Of a stretch of DNA of 50,154 nt, positions 3,073 to 50,154 are shown one piece after another (positions within the stretch are counted from its first letter, which is position 1; the number at the start of each line of letters is the position of its first letter). Origin of the DNA: a virus; the IMG/VR virus record IMGVR_UViG_3300037041_001770, positions 1 through 50,154 of that record. One strand, written 5' to 3'. The notes beneath the pieces were generated by a model that was not told the origin of the DNA, did not search any database, and was given only the letters and a program-made list of their open reading frames with translations. Position numbers and translations under genes: made by a program.

Positions 3073-3509
3073 TGTCATCTATGAGAACCCAGATTGCTCA
3101 AAATATAATCAGCACGATAGTTGCAAGCGGCCTTTATAAATACGCTAGCTACTCAGTTATCAAGATGCTAGCAAGCGATTTCTCAGATTACGAACTTCCT
3201 GCGGTTCAGTTTATTGACCTTGGCGACGATAACATTCACGAAAGAAGTAGAGCCAAAAAGACATGGAATGTTACCCTGGAACTTGTGATAGGACCAAAAA
3301 CAAACTATATTCCCAAGCAAGAAGATCTTTGGGATTTGATCGAGCTAACCGAACAAGCTCTATTTTTTGATCCAAAATTGAACATCCCCGAAGTTATCCA
3401 CATGAAGCTTTTGGGATCAACTACCGACCTTCACACTCTCCAGCCTCTTTATACCGCACGAATTGACATCCAAATAGACTACTACCAGCCCCTTGTCAGA
3501 CCATGCTAA
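3072..3509 (+). CDS. Putative tail terminator / neck protein
   Basis: 145 residues. The start overlaps the previous stop (TAATG). The N-terminus is helical (RTQIAQNIISTIVAS), followed by alternating beta segments and DLWDLIELTEQALFFDP, a helix typical of minor tail terminator-type proteins (lambda U/gp37-like fold). It lies between the gp10-like gene and the major tail protein, exactly where the terminator is expected. The assignment rests on order and general architecture more than on motifs. Confidence 0.6.
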   Translation: MSSMRTQIAQNIISTIVASGLYKYASYSVIKMLASDFSDYELPAVQFIDLGDDNIHERSRAKKTWNVTLELVIGPKTNYIPKQEDLWDLIELTEQALFFDPKLNIPEVIHMKLLGSTTDLHTLQPLYTARIDIQIDYYQPLVRPC

Positions 3510-3560
3510 GATAGTAAAAAATCCCCAAGCATCTAGGAAGAAGCCCGCAGGACTTTTGAT

Positions 3561-3575
3561 TTGTTTAATAAACAA
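3561..3575 (+). promoter_or_regulatory. Palindrome upstream of the major tail gene
   Basis: TTGTTTAATAAACAA is a perfect 15-base inverted repeat, 18 bases before the major tail protein start. A GGAG ribosome site (3580-3583) follows it. It could be an operator or a 5' leader hairpin controlling this high-output gene. The gene has its own terminator downstream. Confidence 0.45.
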
Positions 3576-3592
3576 CACAGGAGTTTGTTATC

Positions 3593-4831
3593 ATGGCGAA
3601 AAATTACAAAAGTATTTATGATTCTGGAAATGTGAGTATTGCGCTCGAGCAACGCTTTTTTGCAAAGCGGGAAACCACACGGGGGGAACTCAAAGCCCCA
3701 ATCGGCGCTGATTTCTTTTACCACACGACAGGAACAATCGAGCACACCCAAGCGGTGGAAAGCTCGCCACACAAATCAGGGCGGCACCACAACAACATTA
3801 TCAAAAAGAAAAAAGAGGCATCCTTTTCGTTCAGCACATTTTTTAACATCAACACGCTTTTACCAGCGGCCTCGGTCAACGAGATTGACCCAGCGGTTAG
3901 AATGCTATGGCACAACATGCTCGGTAGTGAAGATGTAACTGCCGGCGCTAAGTTCATGGCGGCGGTTCCTGCTTTTACATTCTCTCTTTTTGAAGTCTCT
4001 GATAAGTGGGCGCGTCAAGCACGCGGCTGTTTTATGCAGGGCGCTAACATGAGCTTTCCAGGCGATGGTGAGGCTACTATCGAGTGGTCCGGTATGTGCA
4101 AAGATGCTCTTTATGTAGGCATGGGAAAATCTACAACCTCTAACGACGGTGGTCAGACTGTAACACTCCAAGCGGGTGAAGGCGCACTATTCAGCAAAGC
4201 AATTGGCGGCCTCGTCATGCTCATTAAGTCTGATGGTATAACCCGCTCGGCTGATACGGTCGATGGTTCACCGCGTAAGATCGTGTCAGTTTTGGGCGAT
4301 GTTGTGACTCTTGACGGTGCGGTTTTAGCTGATGCTGATGGATCGGGCCTTGCTGATGAAATCTACCTTGTTTACTACGAACCTACTACCCCACTCGCAA
4401 TCGATAATCCTCAGACCGGCCTTGTTGGTTCCTTTGCTGTAACTGGCTTTGGATCTTTTTGCGCTCGCTCAATAGGCGTCAATTTGACCAATGATCATGA
4501 AGCGGCTAACTACTGCTATGGGTCTGACTCGCTATCTGCTCCATTTTTTATTGCGGGAAGCCGGTTAACTGCTGAAGTGACTTTTGAAGCTAACTGGGAC
4601 GAAAAAATGCTTGCTCTCTTCAACTCTGTTCAGTCATTCGAAAGTAAGGAGCTGCAAATAGTCTTGGGTGAAGCTGCTGGGCGAAGGCTTCAAATCGATA
4701 TTCCTACCGCTATTTTTCAGGTTCCCTCTGTTGCTATCCCCGATAGCGGCTCGGTTCCTGTTCCATTCACGGGTACGGCATACCAGTCAACATTTGACGC
4801 CGCCGATGAAATCTCGGTACACTATAAGTAG
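3593..4831 (+). CDS. Major tail (tube) protein
   Basis: 412 residues. It begins MAKNYKSIYDSGNVSIALEQR, then FFAKRETTRGELKAP, the opening typical of large siphophage tail tube proteins. Hydrophilic strand-rich sequence follows, with FSLFEVSDKWARQARGCFMQGANMS and a repeated beta-sandwich layout. The C-terminal half (about 300-412) resembles a second tube-like domain, with repeated EVTFEANWD/ELQIVLGEAAGRRL segments. It is preceded by an AGGAG-type ribosome site and a palindrome, and followed by a strong terminator. This isolates a heavily expressed structural gene between the connector genes and the tail chaperones. Confidence 0.75.
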   Translation: MAKNYKSIYDSGNVSIALEQRFFAKRETTRGELKAPIGADFFYHTTGTIEHTQAVESSPHKSGRHHNNIIKKKKEASFSFSTFFNINTLLPAASVNEIDPAVRMLWHNMLGSEDVTAGAKFMAAVPAFTFSLFEVSDKWARQARGCFMQGANMSFPGDGEATIEWSGMCKDALYVGMGKSTTSNDGGQTVTLQAGEGALFSKAIGGLVMLIKSDGITRSADTVDGSPRKIVSVLGDVVTLDGAVLADADGSGLADEIYLVYYEPTTPLAIDNPQTGLVGSFAVTGFGSFCARSIGVNLTNDHEAANYCYGSDSLSAPFFIAGSRLTAEVTFEANWDEKMLALFNSVQSFESKELQIVLGEAAGRRLQIDIPTAIFQVPSVAIPDSGSVPVPFTGTAYQSTFDAADEISVHYK

Positions 4832-24861: not shown

Positions 24862-25389
24862 ATGAAAATTATAATACCGTTTTTATTGTTGTTTTCTAGT
24901 AGCGCATTTGGTCAGTATTTATATAATGGTGAAACCTTTCCATTTTCTAAAGGGGTCAAATGGGATGGGAACAACTCCATTATTGAAGAGTCCACTAAGC
25001 TACCATTTAGCAAACCGAGACATATTAGGGCGAACATAGTTAGCGTAAATTATTGGGGCGCGGTCGGATATGCTTTTGACAACTGGATGCCAATAGATTT
25101 TTCTAATCATATCACGCTATCTTTCGCACTAAGGTCAAGCGAAAAGGAAACGCTTTTAGGGGTTCAGCTCCACGATGTAAATGGTAAAACAAGTACATTT
25201 GCAAGAGTGGAAACAAAATATAACTATGAACAAATAGTCATACCAATATCTATGTTTAATGATGTTGACCTAAAGAATATAACAGCTGTTATATTTTCAT
25301 TGAGCAAACCAGGGACAACAATACAGCTTATCGATATTGATGATATTGAGCTTTTTGGTAAAAAAAAAGTGAACCAATATCTGGAGTAA
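24862..25389 (+). CDS. Secreted N-terminal domain of split GH5 enzyme (0 frame)
   Basis: 175 residues in the unshifted frame. Signal peptide MKIIIPFLLLFSSSAFG, cleaved before QYLYNG. The mature part (about 20-165) is a beta-sandwich-like module with VNYWGAVGYAFDNWMPIDFS, SFALRSSEKETLLGVQLHD and QIVIPISMF, ending IQLIDIDDIELFG. This is the layout of a carbohydrate-binding module (CBM11/CBM35-like sandwich). The frame closes with KKKVNQYLE right after a nine-A tract. A -1 shift there joins it in frame to the GH5 catalytic domain, giving about 476 residues. Without the shift the product is a free exported binding module. Confidence 0.72.
   Translation: MKIIIPFLLLFSSSAFGQYLYNGETFPFSKGVKWDGNNSIIEESTKLPFSKPRHIRANIVSVNYWGAVGYAFDNWMPIDFSNHITLSFALRSSEKETLLGVQLHDVNGKTSTFARVETKYNYEQIVIPISMFNDVDLKNITAVIFSLSKPGTTIQLIDIDDIELFGKKKVNQYLE
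25360..25370 (+). other. A9 slippery run joining binding module to GH5 domain
   Basis: Nine A residues (25360-25368). Reading ggt-aaa-aaa-aaa and slipping back one base gives agt-gaa-cca, which continues SEPISGVITTNGRAIFD and then into the catalytic domain with no stop. The coding signal is continuous on both sides, so the alternatives are programmed -1 frameshifting, transcript slippage, a recent inactivating mutation or an indel error in the homopolymer. Confidence 0.75.
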
Positions 25390-25457
25390 TAACCACAAAC
25401 GGTAGAGCAATATTTGATTCATGCGGGAAAGAGATAATACCAATCGGCGTCAATCAT

Positions 25458-26291
25458 ATGACAGTTTACACGGATTGGATCGGTACGCCTCGCGATGGCC
25501 TACCCATGTATGAAGAAATAGCGAAAACCGGCGCTAATACTGTCAGGATAGTTTGGAGCTACAAAGAAAACACCACAGCCAAAGAGCTTGATAATGCTAT
25601 TACAAACGCAGCAAATAACAAACTTTTTCCTATGGTTGAGGTTTTAGATAGAACATGTCAATGGTCAAGAGAGGCTTTTGACGAGATTTTATCTTTTTGG
25701 CTTCGAACTGATATCCTTGCGGTACTTAAAAAGCATGAGAAATATTTACTTTTGAACTTTGCTAATGAGCTTGGTAATAATGTAACTACTCTTGAGACAT
25801 ATAAAAGCGAGTACAAAAGAGCTGTTGAGAAGCTTCGCGCCGCTGGAATAAAAAGCCCAATAGTTATCGATGCTCCAGGATGCGGCCAAGATGAAACAAC
25901 TATGTTACAAGCGGGAAACTATCTTATTAATTCTGATCCTCTGCATAATATCATCATGAGCCTTCATTTATGGTGGGTTCCTCAGAATAATGAGAGAATC
26001 ACAAAGCTATTTACCGAAGCGGTAAGGCTAAATATTCCTCTTATCATTGGGGAATTTAGCGGTTTAGCGGTTGATTGTAAAACAAGCACAAATGTTGATC
26101 ATATTTTAAAAATGGCGCGTGATAATAAAGTTGGATGGCTTCCATGGTCATGGGATTCAGCAAATGGTTGTAAGCCTCATTCAATGACAACAGACAATAC
26201 ATTTAACGGGCTATTTGGATATGGAAAAGAGGTCGCCGTAACTCATTCCTATTCAATCAAAAACACCGCCGTTAGATCGCAATGCTTTTAG
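25458..26291 (+). CDS. GH5-type mannanase/glucanase catalytic domain (-1 frame)
   Basis: The open frame starts inside the domain at ATG 25458. The real N-terminal edge is upstream at 25368 in the shifted frame, where GVITTNGRAIFDSCGKEI and IPIGVNHMTVYTDW match the first strand of GH5 enzymes. In the portion from 25458, residues 25-33 (GANTVRIVW), 100-104 (NFANE, with E104 the acid/base), 166-173 (IMSLHLWW), 194-200 (PLIIGEF, with E199 the nucleophile) and VGWLPWSWDSANG all fit clan GH-A. The subfamily of bacterial beta-1,4-mannanases (GH5_8) is closest in pattern. It probably acts outside the cell on polysaccharide. All catalytic residues appear intact. Confidence 0.82.
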   Translation: MTVYTDWIGTPRDGLPMYEEIAKTGANTVRIVWSYKENTTAKELDNAITNAANNKLFPMVEVLDRTCQWSREAFDEILSFWLRTDILAVLKKHEKYLLLNFANELGNNVTTLETYKSEYKRAVEKLRAAGIKSPIVIDAPGCGQDETTMLQAGNYLINSDPLHNIIMSLHLWWVPQNNERITKLFTEAVRLNIPLIIGEFSGLAVDCKTSTNVDHILKMARDNKVGWLPWSWDSANGCKPHSMTTDNTFNGLFGYGKEVAVTHSYSIKNTAVRSQCF

Positions 26292-27919: not shown

Positions 27920-29104
27920 ATGAAATGGTTTTTGAGTATTTTTCTAGCATTAATTTTCAATGTGGGATGCTCTCACTTAGAGAGCGATGGCGTAACAGTT
28001 TTGAAATCAGAAACGGGAGAGAAGTTTTATAGTGGTTTAATCGTTCCCAAGGATTTTAAACCAACAAATGTAAGATCGGCGAAAGACGGGCTGCAAGGAA
28101 CCCTTCCCGCAGAGTTCGACGCAAGGACAAAAGGATATAAGGCACCAGAATCTCAGGGGAATTGCGGCAGTTGCTGGGCCTACGCCATGTCGGCCACTGT
28201 ACAAGATGCATACAAGTATCAGATGGGAAAAGACTTCGATACTTCGGAGCAACATGTACTCTCGTGCACAAAACCAGGGGAATACACTTGTAACGGTGGT
28301 TTCTTCGATTACAACAGACATCAGAATCCTTTTGGTGGCGTAACAGGCGCATCGTGGCCCTACTCTGGGACTGATGAAGCTTGCAGAACGGGACTCAATC
28401 ACCAGCTTAAGATTAAGCAATGGGCATACCTTCCAGGCGGTGAAAACCCTCCAATTGATGAAATCAAATCAGCTATCTATCGGTGGGGAATCGTCTCTGT
28501 TGGGGTCGCGGCCACAGATGGAATGTCTAATTATAAAAGTGGAATTTGGGAAGGAGACGGTTCAACTGCGCTTAATCATGCTGTTACCCTGGTAGGCTGG
28601 TCAGACGCCGGTCAATATTGGATAATGAAAAACTCATGGGGGACATCGTGGGGCCAAAATGGCTATATGTATATTCGGTACGGTGCTAACGGAATAGGCA
28701 CTTGGGCAAACTATGTCGTTTTTGACGATAACCCAACGCCAAATCCAGACCCAACTCCGGACCCTAAACCAACGCCCGATCCAGACCCAACGCCTCCACC
28801 ACCACCGCCTTGCACACCACAGCCATACGCGGATACTGGCTACGGTGATGAAATCCAGGTGTATGCTAATGCAAGTATAAGGGTAGGAACAAGAGGCCAA
28901 AGAGGTCATCGCTATTATTGGACAGCAGAACCAGCTTTTGATAATCAAGCGGTTCCTCAGTCAGCACAGATAAACTACCGCCCACGTATTACAAAGCGGC
29001 TTACGATTCACGCGGTCACCCAATGCGGCGAAGCTACCGACTCTGTGAATGTAAAATTAATTGGATATTATAAGCAGAAAATAGAGCAAGAAGTTGAAGA
29101 ATAA
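27920..29104 (+). CDS. Papain-family (C1A) cysteine protease, predicted lipoprotein
   Basis: 394 residues. Lipoprotein-type signal ending FNVGC (Cys17 as the lipidated residue), or an ordinary signal peptide, since the -3 residue is Asn. A short pro-like segment leads to LPAEFDARTKGY at about 62. The papain core is complete: Q79 and C85 in ESQGNCGSCWAYAM, the conserved CNGG at 124-127, H220 in LNHAVTLVGW and N238 in MKNSWGTSWG. A proline/aspartate repeat linker (PTPNPDPTPDPKPTPDPDP) covers about 273-298, then a C-terminal beta domain of about 90 residues. Active proteases of this type on phage are rare. Membrane-anchored, it could act on envelope or extracellular protein. Confidence 0.87.
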   Translation: MKWFLSIFLALIFNVGCSHLESDGVTVLKSETGEKFYSGLIVPKDFKPTNVRSAKDGLQGTLPAEFDARTKGYKAPESQGNCGSCWAYAMSATVQDAYKYQMGKDFDTSEQHVLSCTKPGEYTCNGGFFDYNRHQNPFGGVTGASWPYSGTDEACRTGLNHQLKIKQWAYLPGGENPPIDEIKSAIYRWGIVSVGVAATDGMSNYKSGIWEGDGSTALNHAVTLVGWSDAGQYWIMKNSWGTSWGQNGYMYIRYGANGIGTWANYVVFDDNPTPNPDPTPDPKPTPDPDPTPPPPPPCTPQPYADTGYGDEIQVYANASIRVGTRGQRGHRYYWTAEPAFDNQAVPQSAQINYRPRITKRLTIHAVTQCGEATDSVNVKLIGYYKQKIEQEVEE

Positions 29105-29124
29105 ACCTCTCATATAATATAAAA

Positions 29125-29154
29125 TTCCCCCGTAAGCTCGACTTTACGGGGGAA
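29125..29154 (+). promoter_or_regulatory. Perfect hairpin covering the ribosome site of the 29157 gene
   Basis: An 11-bp perfect stem (TTCCCCCGTAA / TTACGGGGGAA, loop GCTCGACT) ends two bases before the ATG. The right arm contains the only purine-rich ribosome-site sequence (GGGGGAA), so folding would hide it. There is no T run, so it is not a good terminator. A TATAAT/TATAAA -10 lies just upstream at 29113-29123. Confidence 0.62.
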
Positions 29155-29156
29155 CC

Positions 29157-29735
29157 ATGAAAAACTTCAGCACTAAACTAATAGCATTCGTTCTTTTTAC
29201 CTCAACGGGTGCATTATCACAACCAATTTATAATGTAGATGAGAAGGAATTTCGCTTAATTGTGTCAGAAATAGTTAAAATCTATTCACCTATTTTTGAT
29301 AAAAAAGGCGTCGATTTCTGGATGGAACCTAATTGGGGGTCTAATGATGTTCATTTGTATGCTAAAAAGTTCGATGATTTATCCTGGAAAATTGTAGTAT
29401 CGGGGGGCTTTGCTCGCCAGCCTGAAATCTCCAATGAGGGGCTGATACTCGCCATATGCCACCAAATCGGTCATCTCATGAGCGGTAAGCTATCGGACTA
29501 TTCGACAGAAGAAAAATCATGGCAGTACGCTTATAACATATGTTCAGAGAAAATATTCCTTGAGTGGTCAAAAAGGTATAATCTCAAAAAACTCGGTGTA
29601 AAGATTGATGAATGCGAAAAGCTAAAAACAAGCAGCGATGTTTGCTATTATAAAGCATTCGCAAAAAAATCAATCGAGTTTTTAAATGAGAGGCTTTGCT
29701 ATGGACCACAGCGCGCGGGTCAAACGGGTCATTGA
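29157..29735 (+). CDS. Secreted metalloprotease-like protein with HQxxH
   Basis: 192 residues. Signal peptide (about 1-21, ending TGALS) before QPIYNVDEK. Around residue 100 lies LAICHQIGHLMSG, the position of the zinc-binding helix in gluzincin-type secreted proteins. The catalytic glutamate of HExxH is replaced by glutamine (H102, Q103, H106). A later glutamate (STEEKSWQYAYNICSEKI) could be the third zinc ligand. So it may bind metal but lack normal peptidase activity. Translation is probably gated by the hairpin in front of it. The SNase-like gene overlaps its 3' end. Confidence 0.62.
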   Translation: MKNFSTKLIAFVLFTSTGALSQPIYNVDEKEFRLIVSEIVKIYSPIFDKKGVDFWMEPNWGSNDVHLYAKKFDDLSWKIVVSGGFARQPEISNEGLILAICHQIGHLMSGKLSDYSTEEKSWQYAYNICSEKIFLEWSKRYNLKKLGVKIDECEKLKTSSDVCYYKAFAKKSIEFLNERLCYGPQRAGQTGH

Positions 29736-30039
29736 TGGCGACACATTTGAATGCATTGTGATGCTAGATTTTTGCCTATCAATTGAGGTTACTGTTAGGC
29801 TTTTGGATGTTGATACCTGGGAGATGACAGGACCGCAAAAAGAACTAGGATTAGCTGCAAAGCTGTTTTTGAAGGATAAAATAGAGAATAAGAAGATTAT
29901 TTTAGACCCGCTTAAAAAAGATTCATTTGGCAGATGGCTTTCCCTAGCATATTTTAGGGGTGAAAATCTAAGTGAAATGATGCAAATCTACCAAAAGAAG
30001 ATTATAAAATCCTTAGAAACAAAAAACCTTATAGTTTAG
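29701..30039 (+). CDS. SNase-like (thermonuclease family) nuclease
   Basis: 112 residues from ATG 29701, chosen over ATG 29686 because a GAGAGGC ribosome site lies 7-8 bases upstream. It has RVKRVIDGDTFECIV (the V-x-DGDT strand), VTVRLLDVDTWEMTG (the V-R-L-x-x-x-D-x-x-E loop), KELGLAAKLFLKDKI and DSFGRWLS (the D-x-x-GR signature). The Arg and Glu of the active site are present. There is no signal peptide, so it acts inside the cell or on DNA released at lysis. Phage use of SNase folds ranges from nucleolysis to recombination. Confidence 0.78.
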   Translation: MDHSARVKRVIDGDTFECIVMLDFCLSIEVTVRLLDVDTWEMTGPQKELGLAAKLFLKDKIENKKIILDPLKKDSFGRWLSLAYFRGENLSEMMQIYQKKIIKSLETKNLIV

Positions 30040-30048
30040 GAAAACTCC

Positions 30049-30858
30049 ATGTTAACAATTGAAGCCGTTGTAGTTTGTTATAATTACTCTGATTTCCTTG
30101 AGGCGACCCTACCGCACAATATCCAAATGGTAGATAGGCTAGTCGTTGTTACTCACCCAAGCGATAAAATGACGGGAAAACTCTGTGATAAATATTCAGT
30201 TGATTGCATAAAAACTGAGATATTTCACGATGATAACGACAGATTCAATAAGGGTCGCGCAATCAATCTAGGGCTTCAAAATCTAAGGCATGACGGTTGG
30301 CTGATGCATCTCGATGCTGATATCCTTCTACCGCACCGCTTCCACAATGCTTTAAAAATGGCAAAGCTCGATACGACTTGTCTGTATGGTGCTGATCGGC
30401 TTAACACGGTCACCTATGAAAACTGGGAGAGACACAAAAATAGAAGCATCCCTCAGCACTCATGGAGATTCATGGTTAACCCACAAAAAGAATTCCCGCT
30501 TGGCTCACGGCTTCTTCACTTAGAGTATGGATATTGTCCTATAGGCTACTTCCAACTTTGGTCATCAAAAGCACGGCGACAATACCCGATAGTATGCGGT
30601 AGCGCCGAGCATTCCGATGTTTTATTTGCTACCCAATGGCCGAGAGAAAAGAGAGTTTTACTACCTGAATTTTTCGTTTATCACCTGGAAAGCGAGGATG
30701 TAAAAATGGGGGCAAACTGGGACGGGAGAAAAACCAAGGCTTTTGGCCCTGCTGGAACCCCGAATCCTGGCGAAATCCAGAATCCAGGGGGAAAAAAAAT
30801 CATTCATCCTTTCGGGAGTAATGGACTAGCCAAAGACTTTGGTAATCCAACTTATTAG
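30049..30858 (+). CDS. GT-A family glycosyltransferase
   Basis: 269 residues. Begins MLTIEAVVVCYNYSDFLEATL, the usual GT2 start (V-v-x-x-Y-N). The metal-binding DxD is in DGWLMHLDADILLPHRF (about residue 90). The second half has CPIGYFQLWSSKARRQYPIV, WPREKRVLLPEFFVYHLES, then a G/P-rich tail (GTPNPGEIQNPGGKK). It would transfer a sugar from a nucleotide sugar. On phages such enzymes modify host surface polysaccharide, virion proteins or DNA. Its stop overlaps the stop of the convergent gene 30855-31112, marking the boundary with the minus-strand early region. Confidence 0.72.
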   Translation: MLTIEAVVVCYNYSDFLEATLPHNIQMVDRLVVVTHPSDKMTGKLCDKYSVDCIKTEIFHDDNDRFNKGRAINLGLQNLRHDGWLMHLDADILLPHRFHNALKMAKLDTTCLYGADRLNTVTYENWERHKNRSIPQHSWRFMVNPQKEFPLGSRLLHLEYGYCPIGYFQLWSSKARRQYPIVCGSAEHSDVLFATQWPREKRVLLPEFFVYHLESEDVKMGANWDGRKTKAFGPAGTPNPGEIQNPGGKKIIHPFGSNGLAKDFGNPTY

Positions 30859-42664: not shown

Positions 42665-44938
42665 ATGGACGAAACCCCAGTAACTCGCAAAATTGACAAA
42701 ACCGCTAGCCTTGTCGCAAGCTATCAAAAGCTTGCTAAAACCATATCAGACATGGAATCCAAGGCGTACGATATCGTAAACGATTTTGAAAAAACGGGTG
42801 GAGTTTGGAACGAAGAAGAAAAAGCCTTTTTAGACATGATGACACTCAAGGGGCTTTTCACTTCTGAACACTGGGTTTTCATCATTGTCGATTTGATAGC
42901 AATGAAAATCTGTAATCAAAAGCTTCAGGTTTTTAGGAAAACGGTTACAGATGGAAGCGAAAAAATAGAGCCAGCTTTAAATCATCCCCTTCAAAAAGTT
43001 ATCGATAATCCAAACCCCATGATGAGCTACGCTGATATGATGTATAGTCATACGGTTGATTTAACTCTTCTTGGTAATGCTCTACTTTGGAAAGGGCCTC
43101 TTAGTTCAAGCTTGTGGCCAATTCCCGCTGATACGGTGATGCTCAGTTTCGATAAAATGGAAACGCTCATAGGATATAATCGCTATAATTTTAGGGGATA
43201 TCTTGAGCCTCTTCAGCTTGTAAAATACTTCCCGCTCAATGAAATCATTCACAACAAAAAACCAAATCCATCTAATTACTATTGGGGCCTCTCTCCTTTT
43301 ATTCCAGGCAGGAAACCAATTTTATTTAACCGCTTTACAAGCGAGTATTTGAACAACTACTATTTAAAAGGCGCGACCCCTGGGCTGTCATTAGAAATGT
43401 CTAACGAAGCCAACGAAAAAAACGCAACGAGACTTTTACGTTCCTTTGAAGCAGCCTATACGGGTCGCGCCAACCAAAGAAGAACCCTTGTTTTACCAAA
43501 GGGTGTAACAGCAAAGCAGATAGCACACACCCTAGCCGACCAGCAACTAAAAGATTACCTCATAGCCAATAAGGAAGATATTTTAGCACTTCTTAAGGTT
43601 CCCAAGCATGAAGTAGGGCTTCAAACCGGCGGCTCACTTGGTTCTGAAGAGTATAAAACAGCTCTCAAAAACTTCTGGGCTTCAACTCTTGTGCCGACCC
43701 AAAACCTTATAGCAAGCGGATTTAACCGAGCCTACAAAGACCTTTTAGGGGATAGTTATTTTTGTGCGTTTAATAACGATAATGTTGAGATTTTGAAGGA
43801 AAACGAAGTTGAAAAGTCCAATATTGCGGTAGGACTTTTAAAGACTCATACCATCAACGAAGTAAGGGCAAAGCTCTATCAGCTTACCCCACTTCCTGGC
43901 GGTGATGAGATTCCAGGCGCTTCAACGCAGCAATACCCGACTTTCAATCTTCATAGTCAGGCCGAAGCGATAAAATCAAATGATGAGATAACCGCACCAA
44001 TCGAAAAAAAAATAGAAAACGCTGCTGATGTTGTCATCAAAGCCAATGGCGACTGGTTTGAAGGTCATAAGCAAAAAATCAAAGAGGCAATAGAGAAACC
44101 AGAAATTGAGCTGCAAAAAGCGGCTATCAAACTATTTGCCGATCAATCGGTTAGTGTTATAAAAAAGCTAAATAAAATACTTGGAAAATCAAAAGCAAAC
44201 TACGAAATAAAAAACGATACCTTTATAAAACAACTGATATCAAAAGAAGTTGGTGCTTACTTAGCTGATTGGGTTAGTCATTATAAAGATATTGGTGACG
44301 GTATTGCTGTTTCTGGATGGGTTTTAGCGGGTGACTCTCCCGTCAAAGTTGACGAACTTAACATTGAAATCAGCGATAAATATAAAAAAGAGCTAAATAA
44401 TGAACTTGAGCAAAGAGCTAAAAACAGTTTTGCTTATATGTCTCAGACAACCACAAATGATATTTTTAGCATCATAAAAAGAGGTATCGACGACTCAAGC
44501 ACGGGCCAGCAAATAGCCGAAAAAATCAGCGGTATCTTTGCAAATCCCGAAAAAATGCTAGGCAGGGCGCAAACTATCGCAAGAACCGAATCTCTATCAG
44601 CTCTTTCAATGGGAAAAGCAAAGCAGTTTCAGCAAGCTTCAAAAGTCATTCTAGACTTAAAAAAACTTTGGATGAGCACAAACGACAATCGCACGCGGGG
44701 CAACCCGTCCGGATTATATCCCGATAGTGATTCAGACCATTGGGATCTTCACGGTCAAGTGGTTGATCATGACAAAAAGTTTGTTGACCCTCGCTCAAAG
44801 GAACAACTATCTTTTCCTCGTGATCCAGCGGGTTCGGCTAGTGCGGTGATAAATTGCCGGTGTACTTGGATCACTTTACCGGCCAAAGAGATGGATCAAT
44901 TAATTAAAAGCGAAGCAGAGGTAAAACCGAATGACTAA
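42665..44938 (+). CDS. Portal protein fused to a Mu F-like head morphogenesis domain
   Basis: 757 residues. Residues about 60-420 are HK97-type portal: PLQKVIDNPNPMMSYADMMY, TLLGNALLWKGPLSSSLWPI, YFPLNEIIHNKKPNPSN, GLSPFIPGRK and a wing with KVPKHEVGLQTGGSLGSEEYK. Residues about 590-745 match the Mu F-like domain: FANPEKMLGRAQTIARTES, GKAKQFQQASK, then W-x-S-T-x-D-x-R-T-R and INCRCTWITLP. These two functions are usually separate genes. One protein carrying both is unusual but known in some phages. Confidence 0.88.
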   Translation: MDETPVTRKIDKTASLVASYQKLAKTISDMESKAYDIVNDFEKTGGVWNEEEKAFLDMMTLKGLFTSEHWVFIIVDLIAMKICNQKLQVFRKTVTDGSEKIEPALNHPLQKVIDNPNPMMSYADMMYSHTVDLTLLGNALLWKGPLSSSLWPIPADTVMLSFDKMETLIGYNRYNFRGYLEPLQLVKYFPLNEIIHNKKPNPSNYYWGLSPFIPGRKPILFNRFTSEYLNNYYLKGATPGLSLEMSNEANEKNATRLLRSFEAAYTGRANQRRTLVLPKGVTAKQIAHTLADQQLKDYLIANKEDILALLKVPKHEVGLQTGGSLGSEEYKTALKNFWASTLVPTQNLIASGFNRAYKDLLGDSYFCAFNNDNVEILKENEVEKSNIAVGLLKTHTINEVRAKLYQLTPLPGGDEIPGASTQQYPTFNLHSQAEAIKSNDEITAPIEKKIENAADVVIKANGDWFEGHKQKIKEAIEKPEIELQKAAIKLFADQSVSVIKKLNKILGKSKANYEIKNDTFIKQLISKEVGAYLADWVSHYKDIGDGIAVSGWVLAGDSPVKVDELNIEISDKYKKELNNELEQRAKNSFAYMSQTTTNDIFSIIKRGIDDSSTGQQIAEKISGIFANPEKMLGRAQTIARTESLSALSMGKAKQFQQASKVILDLKKLWMSTNDNRTRGNPSGLYPDSDSDHWDLHGQVVDHDKKFVDPRSKEQLSFPRDPAGSASAVINCRCTWITLPAKEMDQLIKSEAEVKPND

Positions 44939-49968: not shown

Positions 49969-50154
49969 ATCTTTAATTGTCGGGCTTTTTTTGGTAGCTT
50001 CAAATGCCAACGCAGCTCTCTATCTCTATGATAGAACACAGTTTGCGGGAACAGTACCGTTTGATAACTCAGTAAATTTGTTTTCAGCCGATAATGTTCA
50101 GGCAGCAATTGAAGAAGTAAAACAGGCTAATGAAAACATAGCAAGGTTTCTCAC
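49955..50154 (+). CDS. N-terminal part of exported virion-like protein (continues at 1-446)
   Basis: The ATG at 49955 overlaps the stop of the preceding gene. Signal peptide MKLIKSLIVGLFLVASNANA, then ALYLYDRTQFAGTVPF. The frame is open at the window end and continues exactly in position 3-446, making a joined protein of about 172 residues. The run of exported small proteins (49546, 49955) next to capsid genes mirrors the exported fibre-tip proteins at 18212-20881. Confidence 0.75.
   Translation, partial: MKLIKSLIVGLFLVASNANAALYLYDRTQFAGTVPFDNSVNLFSADNVQAAIEEVKQANENIARFL
50028..50154. repeat. Terminal direct repeat, right copy (circular closure)
   Basis: Identical to bases 1-127. Removing one copy gives a circle of 50,027 bases. 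Confidence 0.93.

Follow-up and report, generated by a model that had tools for sequence, protein, structure and literature searches.

A phage cargo gene, predicted to encode an exported mannanase-like enzyme made of a carbohydrate-binding module (CBM) and a GH5 catalytic domain, is split between two reading frames at a run of nine A residues (A9). We lean toward the explanation that the gene was ancestrally a one-frame fusion and that this copy was interrupted at A9 by a change in run length, so that it would now give mainly the CBM, with some enzyme made via slippage.

The split gene and its phage

The window (the whole stretch of DNA analyzed here, IMG/VR record IMGVR_UViG_3300037041_001770, 50,154 bp) carries a direct terminal repeat of 127 bp (positions 1–127 = 50028–50154). 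Because both ends carry these same 127 bases, the phage genome is probably complete. Terminase, portal, capsid, and tape measure genes on the record, together with the repeat, identify a genuine phage. The split gene and its neighbors are laid out as follows.

24862–25389, + strand: 0-frame ORF of 175 codons (175 aa), predicted signal peptide and CBM-like beta-sandwich, no Pfam family
25360–25368, + strand: A9 run and frame-switch point, holding A_AAA_AAA in the 0 frame (25362–25368)
25362–26291, + strand: −1 frame, 309 codons long, encoding a mannanase-like GH5 with the whole (beta/alpha)8 barrel
25458–26291, + strand: GH5 frame from its first in-frame ATG, implausible as the start of a functional exported enzyme
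27920–29104, + strand: papain-like (C1) protease with a lipoprotein-type N terminus, cargo neighbor of GH5
29157–29735, + strand: zincin-like protein, apparently degenerate (HQIGH; metal-site motif and C terminus lost)
29686–30039, + strand: SNase-like nuclease of the same cargo block, with relatives in the contigs that carry the block
30049–30858, + strand: GT2 glycosyltransferase, about 70% identical in the GH5 phage G003

A GGGAG-type ribosome binding site lies immediately 5′ of the ATG of the upstream ORF, and the N terminus of its product is, judged by eye, a classical signal peptide (MKIIIPFLLLFSSSAFG, followed by Q). Around the A run the 0 frame reads GGT AAA AAA AAA GTG and stops at 25387–25389; the −1 frame is preceded by a TAA (25359–25361) and is then open from 25362 to its end. 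The two frames overlap by only 25 nt, with A9 inside the overlap and at the domain boundary, and just 0.07% of all 25-nt stretches of the window contain such a run, so A9 is the cause of the frame switch and not a bystander. Run and switch belong together, whether A9 is a site of mutation or of slippage. Nine As is the longest homopolymer class of the window, and a second A9 (44004–44012) lies within the portal gene, whose frame is intact.

The two encoded domains

The −1 frame belongs to GH5 by its match to PF00150 (E = 4e-16, 59.7 bits; curated cutoff 23.5), and its best PDB match is the beta-mannanase 1bqc (7e-32). An AlphaFold2 model computed from 18 sequences, with L003 left out, forms a full barrel with a pLDDT of 91, and the top 12 PDB matches of this model in Foldseek are all beta-mannanases (TM 0.86–0.89). 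The barrel carries the two catalytic Glu residues of the family (NE motif and IxGEF), with the acid/base codon at 25767–25769 and the nucleophile codon at 26052–26054 both kept. The active site of GH5 enzymes usually comprises eight residues. Six of these are present here, with His replaced by Leu at VHD and Tyr by Trp at HMY, and both substitutions are also found in an intact relative (L004). With all top solved-structure matches being mannanases, the sequence and the model point to a mannanase-like enzyme.

The solved relatives are GH5 beta-mannanases of Thermomonospora (1bqc), Bacillus (1wky, 2whl, and 3jug), and Streptomyces (4fk9 and 3wsu). Like them, the phage GH5 has the full (beta/alpha)8 barrel and both catalytic Glu, at 25–28% identity. 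The phage clade departs from them in that Leu or Trp replaces the beta-3 His, Trp replaces the HMY Tyr, and an insertion, TDWxGTPRDG, is present. A virus-encoded GH5 endomannanase from a bog soil virome, likewise phage-borne, was expressed and cut beta-1,4-mannan (PMC6786970); the portion of that report consulted here mentions neither a CBM nor a frame interruption. Phage proteins with GH5-like domains also occur in BFVD. A viral GH5 mannanase is an already known kind of gene, and the split frame would be new only if it were shown to be used.

The CBM-like half had no family match in a Pfam search and does not belong to CBM11 by sequence. Its AlphaFold2 model has a mean pLDDT of 65, with values above 80 across much of the C-terminal core; Foldseek matches it to 1v0a (3e-6), and a VIA comparison gives Z scores of about 11 with CBM11, CBM30, and CBM29. 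The model thus supports a beta-sandwich fold as in these three families, to which identity is just 10–19%. Filing the domain as a CBM11 member was dropped, since the likeness is one of fold, with no curated-family sequence match. Because a related phage (L126) encodes the CBM by itself, in a complete ORF (3089–3616, minus strand) whose exported product ends at the linker, a free CBM would be a plausible natural product in this family. The 45-kb record of that phage yielded no GH5.

These results agree with much of an earlier note on this DNA, which had described, on a phage (a context borne out here by terminase, portal, tape measure, and the 127-bp terminal repeat), an exported binding-module frame ending just past nine As, exact in its coordinates, and in the −1 frame an uninterrupted full GH5 domain with both catalytic Glu and a mannanase-like identity. 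Its remark that such an enzyme is rare on a phage was too strong, to go by the assayed viral GH5 mannanase as that report presents it (PMC6786970), and it stands insofar as a secreted, non-tail setting is less common.

Intact relatives and the origin of the break

Single-protein scans of viral and genome collections returned no matches, and relatives were recovered by alignment-based scans. The closest homologs lie on two viral contigs from two metagenomes (L004 and L005), identical across the compared 2.5 kb, whose phage origin rests on terminase-like genes (by eye) and an amidase (Pfam). In both, signal peptide, CBM, and GH5 share a single 484-codon frame. Identity to the window is 68% for GH5 and about 45% for the CBM, and the domain junction is an ordinary acidic linker with no A run or other homopolymer. 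A more distant GH5 (48–50% identity) is the C-terminal domain of a single 997-aa frame in L006 (L104 5937–8918) that also joins papain-like, beta, and GDSL-like domains; the GH5 of L006/G003 is likewise in one frame. As a side observation, this fusion of papain, GDSL, and GH5 domains hints at joint action of the hydrolases. In the tree the phage GH5s of the group fall into a single clade (support 99/97), for which two independent viral homologs were found; other viral contigs (L007–L019) have distant GH5 matches at 25–31%.

In the records of L004, L005, and L006 no counterpart of the window's terminase could be detected, and no GH5 was seen in L020 and L021, terminase relatives of the window that are both fragments. 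Another terminase relative (L113; G004:C1:11170-12615) has one TGA and one TAA within the match. MT835572, the sole GenBank “phage” match, was not used as a phage relative, since it resembles a bacterial scaffold; by eye, the adjoining gene is like nicotinate phosphoribosyltransferase. A TnpB-like gene (by eye) lies directly 5′ of the intact CBM-GH5 gene in L103 (6258–7289), a possible route of cargo movement.

The A9 contains a slippery heptamer for −1 frameshifting, A_AAA_AAA, of the weak type; in E. coli this heptamer shifts less than A_AAA_AAG (PMC5009743). No stimulatory RNA structure was found 3′ of A9, where folding was weaker than in shuffled sequence (z = +1.5, +1.3, and +0.8), and no SD-like site was found 5′ of it. 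The A run was sought in L004, L005, L006, and L126 and was absent from all of these few homologs. With the closest homologs in one frame without the run, and with no stimulator, a conserved programmed −1 frameshift is not supported by the sequences. The earlier note had named related genomes with one unbroken frame as evidence that would refute its reading, and the nearest homologs show just such a frame. Of the two products that it foresaw, the free CBM is plausible, given the CBM that stands alone in L126, and frameshifting as the designed route of the gene is unsupported.

Synonymous divergence between the homologs is saturated and dN/dS is unable to date the frameshift, so a relative-rate comparison was used. 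Identity to the GH5 of L006 is 50.0% for the window and 49.7% for intact L004, 4 of 40 conserved GH5 columns deviate in the window and the same number in L004, and the end branch in the GH5 tree is 0.20 for the window vs. 0.24 for L004. By these three measures the GH5 half appears free of decay, its constraint undiminished, and the break would therefore be young, artefactual, or bypassed. An undecayed GH5 is equally expected from a recent change and from an assembly error and does not decide between them.

In the explanation that we favor, the cargo gene would encode an exported CBM-GH5 mannanase-like enzyme, acting probably on a polysaccharide of the mannan type in the surroundings of the host cell or in its habitat. 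CBM and GH5 would originally have been one continuous frame, as L004 and L005 still show, until a lineage-specific change in the length of the A run, arising in the virus itself or during assembly, broke it. If the break is real, most transcripts would give the exported CBM only, and RNA-polymerase slippage on the nine As, by analogy with other bacteria, may add a minor share of full-length enzyme. A run of nine As is a known hot spot of mutation and slippage (PMC1088944). That cargo decays in this phage is supported by the degenerate zincin gene next to the split gene. The portal-gene A9 counts against an assembly error, since its intact frame indicates that the assembly does not generally fail at such runs. 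Two findings count against an interrupted ancestral fusion: the 309-codon GH5 frame without stop or decay, and the free exported CBM of a related phage, in the light of which the interrupted product may be useful. In addition, two independent viral GH5 homologs are a small sample from which to dismiss a functional site particular to this lineage.

Slippage that is actually utilized, by RNA polymerase or by the ribosome on A_AAA_AAA, with free exported CBM and full enzyme made in a selected ratio, seems to us a good deal less probable. At the frame boundary the run reaches the length of about nine A/T that marks a slippage candidate; nine As is also the length from which many bacteria show evident selection against slippage, and in Thermus dnaX, with the same count as the window gene, transcriptional slippage yields about 50% of an alternative product (PMC1088944). 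An A11 run makes two needed products of tssM in Citrobacter rodentium (PMC4256274), where, as in the window gene, a poly-A run stands shortly before an early stop and the shifted frame continues. The part of a report on an archaeal alpha-L-fucosidase used here describes an interrupted glycosidase that is read through by −1 frameshifting (PMC8037382). The undecayed GH5 half and the stand-alone CBM gene of L126, which ends at the same domain boundary, also fit utilized slippage. Against it stand the lack of an A run in every homolog, the lack of a detected stimulator, the weakness of the heptamer, and the A9 of the portal gene, by which such runs are not reserved for this use. Slippage was demonstrated experimentally for tssM and dnaX; in the window gene it would be putative, and the homologs of that gene are without the run. 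That A9 slippage exports both a free CBM and a CBM-mannanase, replacing the separate arrangements of the relatives (CBM alone or CBM-GH5 fusion), is a minority conjecture on our part.

Phase variation, in which changes of A9 length at replication would toggle the population between CBM-only and CBM-GH5 forms, is unlikely. Such switching via homopolymers is common in bacteria, and A9 is of the longest homopolymer class and sits inside the 25-nt overlap at the domain boundary, but a tract of nine As is on the short side for a contingency locus, and relatives lack it. Least credible are two separate genes, with GH5 translated alone or by reinitiation from the in-frame ATG at 25458, 68 nt past the 0-frame stop: this ATG has no SD, the GH5 frame has no ATG, GTG, or TTG 5′ of it, and an internal start there is unlikely because the product would lose the signal peptide and, according to the model, the N-terminal hairpin and barrel strand beta-1.

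The neighboring hydrolase block

The papain-like gene accompanies GH5 in all GH5 phages of the clade (the window, L004/L005, and L006, in which the two are fused). Papain, zincin, and SNase genes stand together in the window (27920–30039) and in L117, L118/L119, L120, L121, L123, L124, L125, L126, and L127, so that the block recurs in some ten phage contigs; in L103 it is preceded, in the same orientation, by an amidase gene. The comparison suggests that exported hydrolases travel from phage to phage as a module, with a possible role in host-cell exit or in clearing the surroundings. A literature search for the papain/zincin/SNase block found no description of it, and it is apparently undescribed.

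In the zincin of the window, HQIGH replaces HExGH, the second metal-site motif is absent, and the C terminus is truncated; nearly all relatives are intact, and the window protein looks like a degenerate or pseudo-enzyme. HQIGH is also seen in the zincin of L123. In a search for a bacterial host, papain-like relatives proved widespread across the sampled members of the phylum to which a Bdellovibrionales MAG belongs; the block was absent from the papain loci checked in that phylum, and GH5 was nearly absent from its sampled members.

The case shows how a frameshift that merely exists can be separated from one that is in use, the deciding facts being that homologs keep a single frame, that the downstream coding is undecayed, and that the upstream domain has a homolog standing alone. 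Also added is a small clade of mannanase-like enzymes in phages, tied to a recurring block of exported hydrolases, and that block is a more interesting lead than the split gene itself.
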